NCBI RefSeq assembly: GCF_019931215.1 | Contig: NZ_JAIOUB010000001.1 | Location: 1,085,955 to 1,149,954, forward strand | Source: Alcanivorax limicola | Lineage (GTDB): Bacteria > Pseudomonadota > Gammaproteobacteria > Pseudomonadales > Alcanivoracaceae | Reading direction: 5' to 3' | Length of the DNA stretch: 64,000 nucleotides | Shown: one piece after another, positions 27,210 through 34,271 of the stretch | How the letters are laid out: the number at the start of each line of letters is the position of its first letter | Position numbering within the stretch: the stretch's first letter is position 1 | Program-made: the position numbers and the translations under genes | The notes under the pieces: model-generated | What the model was told of the DNA's origin: nothing | Database searches by the model: none | Seen by the model: the letters and a program-made list of their open reading frames with translations, nothing else

Positions 27210-27275
27210 CCTTTGTGCAAGTCCAGAGCAGCTCGTTTCGGGTGTTTGCCATTCTTTGTTGGTGTTGGTGGTTGT

Positions 27276-27393
27276 GGCCCTCGGGGGGCGGGGATGTATT
27301 TTCAGGACCCGCCGTAAATACGTCCCTGTAGGCTTGTGTTCGACATCCCTGTCTCACACAGTCCTGAAAATACATCCCCGCCCCCCGAGGGCC
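27276..27393. repeat. Perfect 33-bp inverted repeat, left module
   Basis: The left arm (27276-27308, from GGCCCTCGGGGGG to TTTTCAGGAC) and the right arm (27361-27393) are exact reverse complements flanking a 52-nt loop. The transcript on either strand would fold into a very stable stem. Confidence 0.95.
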
Positions 27394-27488
27394 GTCATGC
27401 GCAGCCTGACTAACAAACTCGAAGCCAACTGCCGGTTTTGTTCCTCCAGAAAGTTGAGACAAACCACCAGACTTGGAATCTCCTGCCA

Positions 27489-27599
27489 GCGTTGAGCCGG
27501 GGTATGCCCTGTAGGGACCTCTTTGGCCATGGATGGCCAAAGCGCGAGCGCCCAGGGACGGCTTGAGCGGTCCCGGAAGGGCATACCCCGGCTCAACGC
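27489..27599. repeat. 22-bp inverted repeat, right module
   Basis: Arms at 27489-27510 and 27578-27599 (core GTTGAGCCGGGGTATGCCCT) pair perfectly. Inner pairs GGGACC/GGTCCC (27513, 27569) and the 20-nt palindrome at 27522-27541 extend the folded structure. Confidence 0.9.
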
Positions 27600-27895
27600 G
27601 TACTCTCTGGAGGGTGACCAGTCCCGCCGGAGGACCGTCGCTCGCCGACCGTTAAGGCGTGTCCTGAAAACCTTTCCTTCCGCCGAGGGCCACAACCATC
27701 AACACCAACAAAGAATGGAAAGCCCCACCAGTTCACGCACTACCCAACAACGAAGCCAAAATGAAAATTTAGTAAAAACAAACACTTGGAGAAAATTTCC
27801 CCACGCACGCTGTGACATACTGACTATCACCAATACCCCAAGACACGCTGCGCCCCCCACACCGCAGCCACCAGAACCGGATCAGGAGAACAATC

Positions 27896-29298: not shown

Positions 29299-30090
29299 TT
29301 ATTCGTTCAGCGACCAGTCGTAATCCAGATAGCGCACGCTGAAATTACCGCGTCGTAATTGCGCCTGCACCGCCTCGTCATCACTGAACAACACCGCGTA
29401 ACCCGCAAGCCATTTCTTCAGGCTGCCGGCAGCCTTGTCAAAATCTTCGCTGTACCAGCGAAAAATGCTCGATACCGCCAGGCGTTCGCGGTCGGCTTCC
29501 CAGCGATTGCGCGTGCGGTCCCGCAGAAAACGTTCCGTGGCATCCTCGAGTTGCGCGTCCAGCTGTTCGGCAACGTAAGGCTCGTCGCGTAGCGCCGGGC
29601 AACCCACTGACGCGCAGTTGACCGCAAAGTGAATGCGCGGCTCGTCATAGCGACCGGGCTCGCGAATAATCTCATGCTCCAGCTGATCCAGGTGCATGGA
29701 CTCACCCAGCAGTTCGAAGAAACGCATTTTCCAGGGGTTTTCCCAGAAGCGGCCAATGTTGCGGATGGATGCCAGCGGATAATTATCGAGTATCAGCTTC
29801 AACGTGAACGCGTTATAGGCGTTGATCAGGAAGGCCAGTTGCTGCTCTGCCTGCCACGCATCAAAGTCGTCTGCGGGCACGGCCGACAGTTGATCGAGGT
29901 AGCGCTGCAAGGACGCCGCGTCCTGCTTCAGCGCGGCATAGTCTACCGTCGAGGCGGTGCCGTCATCCTGCCAGGTGACATGCGCGGCAAGGACGTCGCC
30001 AAACAAGGCATGGCTGTGGTCGAAGCTACGGTCAGCGCCCTGCGCCAGTGGCGCGAGCAGCAGCAATGTTATCAAAAGCAGGCGTTTCAT
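29299..30090 (-). CDS. DUF547 domain protein, secreted
   Basis: A 263-residue protein with a clear signal peptide (MKRLLLITLLLLAPLAQGAD). The DUF547 core shows FLINAYNAFTLKLIL and HFAVNCASVGCPALRDEPY. Start 30090 overlaps the upstream oxidoreductase stop by 1 nt (TGATG), so translation is coupled; an upstream in-frame start would place residues before the signal peptide. DUF547 proteins often occur near redox and arsenic-methylation genes. Enzymatic activity is not established. Confidence 0.87.
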   Translation of the reverse strand: MKRLLLITLLLLAPLAQGADRSFDHSHALFGDVLAAHVTWQDDGTASTVDYAALKQDAASLQRYLDQLSAVPADDFDAWQAEQQLAFLINAYNAFTLKLILDNYPLASIRNIGRFWENPWKMRFFELLGESMHLDQLEHEIIREPGRYDEPRIHFAVNCASVGCPALRDEPYVAEQLDAQLEDATERFLRDRTRNRWEADRERLAVSSIFRWYSEDFDKAAGSLKKWLAGYAVLFSDDEAVQAQLRRGNFSVRYLDYDWSLNE

Positions 30091-32237
30091 CACGAGCGAC
30101 TCCATCGGTGAAAGCGTTCTACCCAGCGCAGCAGGCCTTGCGGCGCATGGGCTTTTTTCCATTCGCCAGCGGCAAACTTGTTCGCCTCGGCCAGCGTCGG
30201 GTAAATATGAATGGTACCCAGAATCTTGTTCAGGCCCAGGCCGTGGCGCATGGCCAGCACATACTCGGCAATCAGGTCCCCGGCATGTTCTCCGACAATG
30301 GTGACGCCCAGAATGCGATCTGTACCCTGCCGGGTCAGCACTTTGACAAAACCCTCATCCGTACCGTCGGCAATGGCACGATCCAGATCATCAATGCCGT
30401 AGCGTGTGACTTCGAAGGCCACGCCCTGCGCTGTCGCTTCCGCTTCGCTGAGCCCCACCCGGGCGACTTCGGGGGAGGTAAAGGTGCACCAGGGAATCAC
30501 GGAATAATCGACCTTGAATTTTTTCAGCCGGCCGAACAGGGCATTCACCGCCACATACCAGGCCTGGTGTGCGGCCACATGGGTAAATTGATACGGCCCG
30601 GCGACATCACCACAGGCATAGATATTGGGATAGCGTGTGCGCAGGTATTCGTCCACCGCCACGGTGCCGGTCTCGCTGAGTTCGATGCCCAGTGTTTCCA
30701 GCCCCAGCCCTTGCGTGCGGGCACGACGCCCCAGCGCCACCAGCACCTGGTCAAAGGCAATATCCCGCGCCCCACTATCACCCTCTACTGTAGCCCATTG
30801 CTCCGTACCCTCGCGGCGGAACCGCACCGCCTTGAAGCCGGTCAGCACCTGCACGCCATCGGCGGCCAGGCCTGCGGTCACTGCCGCAGCTGCATCTTCG
30901 TCTTCTTTCAATAACAGGCGTGGCGCCATTTCCACCAGCGTGACCTCGGACCCCAATCCGGCGAAGCTCTGCGCCAGCTCACAGCCAATCGGGCCACCGC
31001 CCAGCACCAGCAAACGTTGCGGCCGGCTCTGCAAAGACCAGAGGCTGTCCGACGTCAGGTAGTCCATATCCGTCAGGCCCGGAATCGGCGGCACCGCGGG
31101 TTCGCCGCCAGAGGCGATAACAATGTTTTTTGCGGTAATGCGTTGGGTCTTGCCCGCATGAGTGACATCAATTTCCCAGGGCGAGATGATCGTTGCCTGT
31201 CCCTGACGACAATCCACACCCAGTTCCGAATAACGCTCAACGGAATCGTGGGGCGCGATCTTGCTGATAACGCGCTGCACCCGCTGCATGACGGCAGCAA
31301 AATCCACCTGCCCTGCCTCGGTGGTGATGCCGTACTTGCCAGCCCCGGCGATGGTCTTCTGCACCCGGGCGCTCTTGATCAATGTTTTCGATGGCACGCA
31401 GCCGGTATTCAGGCAATCACCGCCCATGCGGTCACGTTCCACCAGCACCACCTTCGCCTTGACTGCGGCGCCGATATAGGCCGTGACCAGACCGGCGGAG
31501 CCTGCGCCTATTACGGCGATATTGGCATCAAACTTTTCCGGCTTTTTCCAGCCGGCATAGACTCTCATCGCCTGCACCCGGCCCATGATGCCCCGGGCGA
31601 TCCAGGGGAAAAGACCGAGCAGCACAAAAGCACCGATCAGCCCCGGCGACAACAGATCACCGGGGGATTCAATCACGGCCAACTGCGTGCCGGCATTTAC
31701 ATACACCAGCGTGCCTGCGAGCATGCCGACCTGGCTGACCCAATAGAAGGTCCAGGTCCGAATGGGCGTCAGCCCCATCACAAGGTTGATCACAAAAAAC
31801 GGAAACGCCGGCACCAGCCGCAGCGTAAAGAGATAAAAAGCGCCGTCCTTGCGCACGCCCTCATTGATCGGTTTCAGCCGCTCGCCGAAGCGTCGCTGCA
31901 CGCTATCCTGCAACAACAGGCGCGATACCAGAAACGCGATGGTGGCACCCAGGCTGGAGGCAAACGACACCAGCAACGTGCCCACCACCAGCCCGAAGAA
32001 GGCCCCCGCCGCCAGCGTCATGATGGCCGCACCCGGCAACGACAACCCGGTCACCGCCACATATATGACGAAGAACACCACCAGTGTCAGCACGCGATGT
32101 TCGCTGTACAGGGTCTGGAACCCGTCCAGGCTGCTGCGCAGATATTCCAGCGTGAGAAAACGCCCGAGGTCGAACCAGAAAAATACCGCCAGTGCCGCCA
32201 CGATCAGCGCCAGAATCAGGGCCTTCTGCCTGTTCAT
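30090..32237 (-). CDS. TVP38/SNARE-associated membrane domain fused to dithiol FAD oxidoreductase
   Basis: A 715-residue fusion. The first about 230 residues are a TVP38/TMEM64 (SNARE-assoc) membrane domain with several helices (for example LPGAAIMTLAAGAFFGLVVGTLL and RLVPAFPFFVINLVMGLTPI). The rest is a class-I pyridine-nucleotide disulfide oxidoreductase with FAD motif VIGAGSAGLVTAY, redox pair Cys275/Cys280 in GGDCLNTGCVPSKT, NAD motif VLGGGPIGCELAQ and a C-terminal dimer domain. Such fusions are often labelled mercuric reductase, but the C-terminal Cys pair of MerA is absent. It lies 13 bp after the radical SAM gene and overlaps DUF547. Confidence 0.9.
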   Translation of the reverse strand: MNRQKALILALIVAALAVFFWFDLGRFLTLEYLRSSLDGFQTLYSEHRVLTLVVFFVIYVAVTGLSLPGAAIMTLAAGAFFGLVVGTLLVSFASSLGATIAFLVSRLLLQDSVQRRFGERLKPINEGVRKDGAFYLFTLRLVPAFPFFVINLVMGLTPIRTWTFYWVSQVGMLAGTLVYVNAGTQLAVIESPGDLLSPGLIGAFVLLGLFPWIARGIMGRVQAMRVYAGWKKPEKFDANIAVIGAGSAGLVTAYIGAAVKAKVVLVERDRMGGDCLNTGCVPSKTLIKSARVQKTIAGAGKYGITTEAGQVDFAAVMQRVQRVISKIAPHDSVERYSELGVDCRQGQATIISPWEIDVTHAGKTQRITAKNIVIASGGEPAVPPIPGLTDMDYLTSDSLWSLQSRPQRLLVLGGGPIGCELAQSFAGLGSEVTLVEMAPRLLLKEDEDAAAAVTAGLAADGVQVLTGFKAVRFRREGTEQWATVEGDSGARDIAFDQVLVALGRRARTQGLGLETLGIELSETGTVAVDEYLRTRYPNIYACGDVAGPYQFTHVAAHQAWYVAVNALFGRLKKFKVDYSVIPWCTFTSPEVARVGLSEAEATAQGVAFEVTRYGIDDLDRAIADGTDEGFVKVLTRQGTDRILGVTIVGEHAGDLIAEYVLAMRHGLGLNKILGTIHIYPTLAEANKFAAGEWKKAHAPQGLLRWVERFHRWSRS

Positions 32238-32250
32238 AGTCGATTCCTTT

Positions 32251-33165
32251 TTATAACTCGCTGCAGGACGAACCAAACCGGAAGCAACTGTAACACCGGT
32301 GATGGCGCATCATGATGCGCTCATCGAGACTTTCCCGCAGTGTACTGCCGAGATCGTAGTGCGGATCGTCGTCAACCAGCGTACAGGCGTACACCCGCAT
32401 GCGACCCTTGTCCTTGACCACCATGCGGCTGAAGGCACACATGAACTGCGCGCGCGTTGCCTCGCTCTGGTAGGTCGTCATGCAGTGTTCGGTAATGTGC
32501 GGCGTTTCGCGCTCGGTGCCCGGGGGTGCGAAATCGGGAAACGACACCAGATGCGTGTCGTCCGGGAGGCCGTATTGGCGAAACAGCGCGCGATAGGCCG
32601 CCTCTTCCTTCTCGGTGTCTTCGTCTTCCGACCACTGGCGTGCCAGTGACACATGGAAACCCAGATCATGCAGCGCACGCATGGCACGAAACGATTCATC
32701 GAACGTGCCAACGCCCCGGCCCGCTTCATGGCGCGCAACGTCCGGGTAGTCGATGCTGATGCGGAACGACACCGGATGCGGCGCTTGCGCCAGGTGAGCG
32801 ATCTGATCCAGACGTCGCAACAATGGCCGTGTGCCGTTGGTCAGCACCAGGCAGGGACGGCGGGCGCTGGCATATTCGAGAATCTGCGGGAACTGCTTCG
32901 CCACAAACGGCTCGCCGCCAGTGAAGGAAAATTGCGCCACACCCAGCTCACAGGCCTCGTCGATCAACGGCTGTACATCTGCCAGCGTGGTCAGCCCCAG
33001 ACGGTCATCGCCGGGCTTCGAGCCCTCCAGGCAGAAAGGACACGCCAGATTGCAGGCCGTGCCCGTGTGGAACCACAGCTCTCGCAGGGCCGGCGCTTCG
33101 ATGTAACCGCGCGGCTCACCCCCGGGTGTGCGAAACCAGTCTTGCGTCTTGATCAATTGCATCAT
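32251..33165 (-). CDS. Radical SAM protein with C-terminal cysteine-rich region
   Basis: A 304-residue enzyme with the 4Fe-4S motif CNLACPFC (Cys38, Cys42, Cys45), the SAM-binding FSFTGGEPF, and barrel strands LVLTNGT and VSFRISIDYPD. The C-terminal part contains further cysteines (FMCAFS, YACTL, HRCYSCFRFGSSC) that could hold an auxiliary cluster. It is not the ArsS type, which has a CNQSCxHCH-like motif. The context between arsM and a dithiol oxidoreductase suggests an arsenic-related substrate, which is inference. The leader contains a tandem duplication of the ribosome-binding site. Confidence 0.87.
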   Translation of the reverse strand: MMQLIKTQDWFRTPGGEPRGYIEAPALRELWFHTGTACNLACPFCLEGSKPGDDRLGLTTLADVQPLIDEACELGVAQFSFTGGEPFVAKQFPQILEYASARRPCLVLTNGTRPLLRRLDQIAHLAQAPHPVSFRISIDYPDVARHEAGRGVGTFDESFRAMRALHDLGFHVSLARQWSEDEDTEKEEAAYRALFRQYGLPDDTHLVSFPDFAPPGTERETPHITEHCMTTYQSEATRAQFMCAFSRMVVKDKGRMRVYACTLVDDDPHYDLGSTLRESLDERIMMRHHRCYSCFRFGSSCSEL

Positions 33166-33199
33166 TCAACCTTTACACACAATTCAACCTTTACAACAG
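33164..33199 (-). repeat. 18-bp tandem duplication carrying the radical SAM ribosome-binding site
   Basis: ATTCAACCTTTACA occurs at 33164-33177 and 33182-33195, an 18-bp period. On the minus strand each copy reads TGTAAAGGTTGAAT, which contains the AAGG used by the radical SAM ATG at 33165. The copies fill the 38-bp gap after arsM. Confidence 0.85.
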
Positions 33200-33203
33200 T
33201 CGC

Positions 33204-34271
33204 TCAACAACAGGCCGCTGCTGCACCGTCACGTTGCGCACCGTCGTTGAAGGGCAGCGCGGTACCACATCCCTCGAAGATGCCGTAGTGGGTGTCAAAA
33301 TTACCCACGAACTCGAAGTGCTCGGCAAAGCGGGTGGCCTTGAGCATATGCCAGGTGTTGCCGCAGACCGGAAACACCTTGCCACGTTCGATCTGGTGAT
33401 GTGCATCCAGGTGAAACACCTGCGGCGAGCGCGCCACCGTGCCCCGGTAGATCACCGCCTGACCGTAGTCCTCGCAAGCCGGCTCGAGCTGGTCCAGCTT
33501 GAACAGCCGCCAGGTGGCAGAGTAGAACCGGGCCGGCGCCAGCTTCCCGGCGATGGCCGGATTCTCGATGGTGATGGGCCGGTCTTCCACCAGTCGTGGA
33601 TCGCCAAATCCTGCGGTTTTGGCCAGGTTCAGGAAATCGTTCCAGTAGAGCGCCCCGGACAGACACTCGCCATACAGCACCGGGTCCTGCATCAGTGGTT
33701 CCGGGATACGGCGGTCGGCATACACATCAGAGAAATACATCTCGCCACCGGGCTTGAGCACCCGGTGCACCTCACGCAGCACCTGCGCCTTGTCCGGGCT
33801 GAGGTTGATGACGCAGTTGGACACGACGATATCGAAGTAGTCATCCGGCAGCCCCAGCGCGTCGAGCTGCTCGATATAGCCCTGCCGGAACGACACATTG
33901 CTGCTGGCGTGGCCGAACTGCTGACGATGGTAGTCCTTGTGACGTTCGGCCACCTCAAGCTGTTCGACGGTCATGTCCACACCAACCACCTCGCCCTGCT
34001 CGCCCACCAGCGCGGAGAGCACGTAAACATCCCGGCCACTGCCACAGCCGAGATCCAGTATCCGCATGCCTTCCAGCTGCTGCGGCGCCACCAGCCCACA
34101 GCCGTAATAGCGGGTGATCACCTCGTCATGCAGCTGCGCCAGCACCGGCTTGAGCCAGTCAGGCGGTATCTGATCACAGCAGGCATTGGTTTGCAGATCG
34201 TCGCTGGATTGCAGCGTCTGGCCGTAGTATTCACGTACTTCATCGCGCATTGCGGGGTCGCTCCTGCTCAA
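33204..34271 (-). CDS. arsM: Arsenite S-adenosylmethionine methyltransferase ArsM
   Basis: This 355-residue methyltransferase transfers methyl groups from SAM to arsenite. Motif I is ILDLGCGSGRDVYVL (about 71-85). The diagnostic blocks are YYGQTLQSSDDLQTNACC with Cys31/Cys32, SNCVINLSPDK with Cys153, and LYGECLSGALYWNDF with Cys203. Cys153 and Cys203 are 50 apart, the spacing of the two core As-binding cysteines in characterised ArsM. The C-terminal domain FPVCGNTWHML and HYGIFEGCGT is also typical. It ends in Cys-Cys and heads the four-gene operon. Confidence 0.95.
   Translation of the reverse strand: MSRSDPAMRDEVREYYGQTLQSSDDLQTNACCDQIPPDWLKPVLAQLHDEVITRYYGCGLVAPQQLEGMRILDLGCGSGRDVYVLSALVGEQGEVVGVDMTVEQLEVAERHKDYHRQQFGHASSNVSFRQGYIEQLDALGLPDDYFDIVVSNCVINLSPDKAQVLREVHRVLKPGGEMYFSDVYADRRIPEPLMQDPVLYGECLSGALYWNDFLNLAKTAGFGDPRLVEDRPITIENPAIAGKLAPARFYSATWRLFKLDQLEPACEDYGQAVIYRGTVARSPQVFHLDAHHQIERGKVFPVCGNTWHMLKATRFAEHFEFVGNFDTHYGIFEGCGTALPFNDGAQRDGAAAACC

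Follow-up and report, generated by a model that had tools for sequence, protein, structure and literature searches.

Introduction

Few enzymes are known that join carbon to arsenic. Those set out in PMC12159101 are methyltransferases, the radical S-adenosylmethionine (SAM) enzyme ArsS of arsenosugar synthesis and the radical SAM enzyme ArsL of arsinothricin synthesis. ArsS is presented there as an arsenic adenosylase (PMC12159101, citing Cheng 2021), and PMC8552651, citing Xue 2019, states that in Synechocystis ArsM and ArsS take the first steps. Here we analyze four genes at positions 29299-34271 of a 64,000-nucleotide stretch of the Alcanivorax limicola genome (the window; NCBI RefSeq assembly GCF_019931215.1, contig NZ_JAIOUB010000001.1, positions 1,085,955 to 1,149,954). 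They encode a homologue of the arsenite methyltransferase ArsM, a radical SAM protein (rSAM), a TVP38 membrane domain fused to a flavin adenine dinucleotide (FAD) oxidoreductase (TVP38-FAD) and a DUF547 protein.

Our analysis suggests, with a probability of about 0.72, that arsM and rSAM together make up the first half of a pathway of the arsenosugar type, with a non-ArsS rSAM family in the place of ArsS. The catalytic steps outlined in the Discussion are proposals. They build on direct observations: the operon, the missing ArsS, two glycosyltransferases in the genome, gene co-occurrence, mutual exclusion and the sharing of partners.

Results

The radical SAM protein is distinct from ArsS

Open reading frame calls and domain searches place the four genes on the minus strand, tightly spaced. 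arsM and rSAM are separated by 38 bp, rSAM and the TVP38-FAD gene by 13 bp, and the TVP38-FAD and DUF547 genes overlap by 1 nt (TGATG). Their ATG starts are the likely ones, chosen by reading. This agrees with the packing given in an earlier prediction made from the sequence (the original prediction), and the domains were confirmed with Pfam. The spacing suggests that the four genes are cotranscribed. The features of the arsM-rSAM pair are as follows.

33204..34250, minus strand: arsM, arsenite methyltransferase homologue; long form with a C-terminal extension that ends Cys-Cys (Pfam Methyltransf_31, 5e-37)
32251..33165, minus strand: rSAM, radical SAM protein of 304 residues, proposed ArsS substitute (Pfam Radical_SAM, 4e-19)
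33031..33054, minus strand: CX3CX2C motif of rSAM, residues 38-45; cysteines invariant in 20/20 sequences
32263..32295, minus strand: CX2CX6C motif at the rSAM C-terminus, residues 291-301; pattern resembles ArsS and a sister family of rSAM

The rSAM scores 42.1 bits with the ArsS model TIGR04167, which has a cut-off of 300. PF04055 is its only Pfam match at E ≤0.001, and DUF3641 (PF12345) was not matched. A true ArsS protein (L144) reached 476.5 bits with TIGR04167 and 3.6e-59 with PF12345. In a phylogenetic tree, the rSAM and its orthologues (the window type; 29 rows, Shimodaira-Hasegawa-like approximate likelihood ratio test (SH-aLRT) 99) and ArsS (22 rows, SH-aLRT 100) form separate groups. 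The tree was built by a quick method with an outgroup of seven proteins, most of which look MoaA-like by eye, and long branches join in it. It is informative on the separateness of the families, not on their branching order. Membership of the rSAM in ArsS is rejected by its score, the missing domain and its own clade, and the difference from ArsS that had been predicted is thereby confirmed.

The rSAM and ArsS also have features in common. Both contain the CX3CX2C core. The window-type profile aligns end to end, final cysteines included, with three of three ArsS targets (261-272 columns), and in its core only with eight of eight other radical SAM proteins (130-158 columns). A regular expression for the final CX2-3CX6-7C motif matched 28/28 window-type, 13/13 sister and 17/20 ArsS proteins, and 0/7 others. 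A second expression (MC..C..CxxC..C), the spacings of which are too narrow for the window type, was not used as evidence (1/28 window-type, 0/13 sister, 20/20 ArsS). Ten cysteines are invariant across 20 rSAM sequences.

The best NCBIfam model for the rSAM is that of the Rv1681 family (NF049973), which covers only residues 29-207 and gives 95 bits against a cut-off of 380. It is also the best model for seven of seven relatives (four window-type, three sister), whose ArsS scores are 44-60 bits. An AlphaFold model of the rSAM (predicted local distance difference test (pLDDT) 78.5) resembles BlsE, SkfB, SuiB and MoaA (Foldseek; Z 17.0-19.4), and no structure titled ArsS is among the 50 matches listed. 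Such likeness indicates the fold, not the substrate.

An unannotated window-type match was also seen on plasmid pHP-187 of Marinobacter adhaerens HP15 (L182, 9001-9880), in two tblastn pieces at 57% identity. It is located upstream of a sodium:solute symporter gene and is probably interrupted.

Gene neighborhoods of the rSAM family

Orthologues about 53-67% identical to the window rSAM are found in two types of array. In metagenome-assembled genomes (MAGs) titled Rhodospirillaceae or Gammaproteobacteria, rSAM closes a cassette in the order TIGR04282-TVP38-FAD-TIGR04283-rSAM, a member of which is missing from some loci. In Paraglaciecola and others, an arsM array has the order TIGR04282-arsM-rSAM-MTAP. 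TIGR04282 and TIGR04283 are glycosyltransferases and MTAP is a nucleoside phosphorylase.

We counted partners within 6 kb at 31 window-type loci, the window included, which were taken as one per genome. arsM is present at 15 loci, TIGR04282 at 16 and TIGR04283 at 15 (three of them weak, 78-89 bits), and 26/31 loci contain at least one of the three. This supports the predicted link to arsenosugar-type chemistry. The FAD oxidoreductase (>900 bits) is found at 17 loci, MTAP at five and DUF547 at four; two loci have none of these six partners. The count of 17 leaves out L031 (95 bits, TVP38 part of the fused query) and L035 (72 bits, opposite strand), and the raw FAD counts at ArsS loci (9/20) and sister loci (4/13) include TVP38-only matches. 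Some distant glycosyltransferases fall below the 70-bit threshold of this census, and linkage in the sister family was taken from match coordinates instead.

The A. limicola genome contains adjacent TIGR04282 (145 bits) and TIGR04283 (245 bits) genes, both over cut-off, on the same contig about 148 kb from the operon. The absence of a glycosyltransferase near the operon, pointed out earlier, holds locally but not for the contig. A profile search of this genome found no ArsS over cut-off; its best match is the window rSAM, at 38 bits.

The rSAM and ArsS have the same kinds of partner, including arsM, TIGR04282, TIGR04283, TVP38-FAD, the SSF symporter and MTAP. Three genomes of one window-type genus have the order FAD-rSAM-SSF symporter-c123. 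An ArsS genome (G249) has the order ArsS-SSF-c123-FAD, and its SSF proteins are 59-60% identical to those of the former loci. These shared partners form the pattern expected if one radical SAM protein replaced the other. The c123 protein (316-325 residues) is located beside either kind of rSAM at L126, L128, L129, L147 and L153, with an SSF symporter adjoining in four of the five. Its L126 copy, the one tested, has no Pfam match.

Co-occurrence and mutual exclusion

Four profile searches covered a panel of 397 genomes of the phylum, and were treated as the same genome set because their counts and handles agree. At most five to seven candidates were scored per genome, and misses are possible. 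The thresholds were 1e-40 for the window-type rSAM profile, 1e-50 for ArsS (all over cut-off) and 1e-35 for TIGR04283 (122/133 over cut-off). A gap in bit score separates the window type (464-558 bits; eight genomes of six families) from the sister family (164-222 bits; 35 genomes of 14 families). ArsS over cut-off is present in 83 genomes.

TIGR04283 is found in 7/8 window-type, 34/35 sister and 81/83 ArsS genomes, and over its curated cut-off in 6/8, 28/35 and 77/83, respectively. ArsS and a window-type or sister rSAM occur together in none of the 397 genomes (83 versus 43 genomes). The 133 genomes with TIGR04283 comprise 81 with ArsS, 41 with the window type or sister, none with both and 11 with neither. 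Within these 133, Fisher tests of the exclusion gave p values of 2e-24 for the window type and sister together and 0.001 for the window type alone, kinship being ignored. Two of the sister matches contain an in-frame stop, a TAA in G340:C1:532262-533161 and a TAG in G330:C1:978245-979138.

The window ArsM scores below the NCBI curated cut-offs (NF008823, 173.4 bits versus 263; AsSugarArsM, 99.5 versus 400). Its Cys24, Cys146 and Cys196 are invariant in 12/12 aligned sequences, and we take them to be the three arsenic-binding cysteines of ArsM, assuming both that role and the match to published numbering. Long-form ArsM, defined in the panel by a score >400 bits, accounts for 39 of the 68 matched genomes, and 38 of these 39 also carry ArsS (19 genomes), the sister family (14) or the window type (5). 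Its rate is 5/8 in window-type genomes and 14/35 in sister genomes, compared to 39/397 overall. The original prediction had named homologues that usually occur without arsM as a sign against it. The answer is mixed, as these rates and the 15/31 loci with arsM nearby indicate. Taken with the gene company, the co-occurrence supports the view that the arsM-rSAM pair acts on arsenic.

The TVP38-FAD and DUF547 genes form a separate module

The remaining features of the four-gene set are as follows.

30090..32237, minus strand: TVP38/VTT membrane domain and FAD pyridine nucleotide-disulphide oxidoreductase in one fused protein of 715 residues (Pfam VTT_dom, 3e-23; Pyr_redox_2, 5e-64)
31686..32027, minus strand: VTT (TVP38) domain, PF09335
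31398..31415, minus strand: CX4C pair (CLNTGC) of the oxidoreductase; both cysteines invariant in 11/11 fused proteins
29299..30090, minus strand: DUF547 protein, 263 residues (PF04784, 5e-27), with an N-terminal hydrophobic stretch that resembles a signal by eye

In its FAD oxidoreductase domain and CX4C pair, the TVP38-FAD protein resembles the mercuric reductase/lipoamide dehydrogenase family, and by analogy with this family the pair is presumably redox-active. It scores below the cut-offs of NF004991 (517.9 versus 620), TIGR02053 (394 versus 454.45) and TIGR01350 (402 versus 408.8). The score with TIGR02053 led us to reject the mercuric reductase MerA as its identity. Unlike MerA, it contains a fused VTT membrane domain and no cysteine near the C-terminus, where we take MerA to have a cysteine pair.

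Full-length TVP38-FAD matches are present in 7/8 window-type genomes and, within the same class, in 13/15 ArsS genomes (one split by an in-frame stop) and 6/6 genomes with TIGR04283 only. They are found in 1/10 sister genomes and 7/41 controls (5/27 of the same class, 2/14 others). The enrichment, 26/29 same-class genomes versus 7/41 controls, has a p value of 8e-10. TVP38-FAD also occurs elsewhere. At L173 and L181 it is paired with DUF547, in genomes without TIGR04283 or either rSAM. At L164, L165 and L167, in TIGR04283 genomes with neither rSAM, it and TIGR04283 are located beside an apparent three-part ABC transporter (by eye), presumably YnjBCD-like; these loci may represent another pathway or a third enzyme.

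In the window genus, the fused TVP38-FAD gene adjoins the arsM-rSAM pair in 4/6 rSAM-bearing genomes and DUF547 is present in 2/6, A. limicola itself and G001, which are also the only two of seven genus genomes with the complete set. The four genes had been viewed as one conserved unit, a view rejected by this count and by the TVP38-FAD and DUF547 genes found away from arsenic genes. Since TVP38-FAD is enriched with rSAM, ArsS and TIGR04283 and yet is found without them, the module travels along with these genes and is not tied to arsenic. This half of the operon, TVP38-FAD and DUF547, is a module apart from the arsM-rSAM pair and promiscuous in its associations.

The DUF547 protein is the sole DUF547 match in the 3.55 Mb A. 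limicola genome. The nearest named relative for the locus is an Alcanivorax record (L022), with an rSAM identity of 95%. Upstream of the operon are genes for a fatty-acid desaturase and an FAD/2Fe-2S reductase, and downstream are PA2778/PA2779-family genes on the opposite strand; domain searches found no known arsenic genes among these neighbors. The window also contains intergenic inverted repeats at 27241-27726, the arms of which are 100% (33 nt), 88% (34 nt) and 82% (60 nt) complementary; they are possibly a small repeat element.

Discussion

The genomic context gives good support to a new family of enzymes for a pathway of known kind. In the route that we propose, ArsM would methylate As(III) to a dimethylarsenous (or monomethylarsenous) species. 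The rSAM would cleave SAM with the [4Fe-4S] cluster of its CX3CX2C motif and add the 5'-deoxyadenosyl radical to the methylated As(III). Its C-terminal cysteines may hold either the arsenical or an auxiliary cluster. Adenine would then be taken off by a nucleoside phosphorylase (MTAP or a relative), and the TIGR04282 and TIGR04283 glycosyltransferases, encoded elsewhere in the genome, would build the final glycoside. TVP38-FAD and DUF547 may be an accessory thiol-redox/membrane module that joined the operon in some lineages, in which the oxidoreductase might maintain the reduced state of thiols or of the arsenical at the membrane. The new organoarsenic product suggested earlier is unsupported; the context favors a route of an already known kind, run with another enzyme. 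Among the titles listed from the open-licence literature, none concerned an arsenosugar rSAM other than ArsS, and neither TVP38 nor DUF547 appears in the 12 matches listed of 111.

Several observations weigh against this pathway. At five of the 31 loci, arsM and the glycosyltransferases are all missing within 6 kb, and at two of these the FAD oxidoreductase is missing as well. The sister gene is mostly unlinked, with TIGR04283 within 6 kb in 6/35 genomes and long-form ArsM in 4/35, and long-form ArsM is absent from 3/8 window-type panel genomes, all of one genus. The 11/133 TIGR04283 genomes with neither rSAM suggest that the glycosyltransferases may also have other uses, and their name, arsenosugar biosynthesis glycosyltransferase, is an NCBI label only. 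The MTAP match in the A. limicola genome (260 bits) is under its cut-off of 274.85. In its core sequence, the rSAM is nearer to the Rv1681 family (95 bits) than to ArsS (42 bits), the sister-family profile aligns to ArsS in the core only (148 columns), and the C-terminus of the rSAM model is poor (pLDDT <50 at 211-231 and 292-304). The panel genomes are not independent, family f60 supplying many of the ArsS rows.

A different or later step for the rSAM in arsenosugar gene sets, yielding, for example, the head group of an arsenolipid or a modified arsenosugar while adenosylation is done otherwise, would fit its position outside ArsS by score, domain and tree. However, none of the 43 window-type or sister genomes has an ArsS over cut-off, and adenosylation would then proceed without a known enzyme. 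We consider such a role improbable. It is less probable still that the rSAM acts like ArsL and transfers the 3-amino-3-carboxypropyl group of SAM to arsenic, which would give an arsinothricin-like amino acid. At the core of the arsQML cluster, as described in PMC8552651, is an arsM-rSAM pair, so that in both systems a radical SAM gene adjoins arsM, and both proteins, the window rSAM putatively, would form a C-As bond. In the same account, however, BgArsL has 428 residues, three conserved cysteines and a GntP-type transporter as partner (PMC8552651), whereas the window rSAM has 304 residues and ten invariant cysteines. Length and cysteines led us to reject the rSAM as a member of ArsL. The glycosyltransferase partners and MTAP (5/31 loci) suit a 5'-substituted adenosine, not an amino acid, and there is no ArsL model among the best 25 of 36 NCBIfam matches, which is weak evidence.

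The four genes might also be no joint arsenic system, with TIGR04283, TVP38-FAD and DUF547 serving another function and the arsM-rSAM pair as their chance neighbor. The loci with TVP38-FAD and DUF547 alone (L173 and L181), and those with TIGR04283 and TVP38-FAD beside the apparent ABC transporter (L164, L165 and L167), would be expected in that case. A chance association is very unlikely, however, given arsM near rSAM at about half of the loci (15/31), one kind of rSAM accompanying long-form ArsM in 38/39 genomes and the same kinds of partner around rSAM and ArsS. In our own weighting, the replacement of ArsS by a non-ArsS rSAM family accounts best for these data. A bolder form of it is tentative: a second rSAM lineage with two subfamilies may have evolved or been recruited apart from ArsS for C-As bond formation, serving 41/122 (about one third) of the sampled TIGR04283 sets with a recognizable rSAM, and its product may differ from the classic oxo-arsenosugars.

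That a non-ArsS rSAM family stands where ArsS stands is well supported by context. If the proposed replacement is true, the curated ArsS model misses an arsenosugar-type route in many Pseudomonadota, MAGs titled Rhodospirillaceae among them, which would bear on the source of arsenosugars in seawater and food webs. It would also provide a second enzyme for testing how a radical SAM protein handles arsenic.

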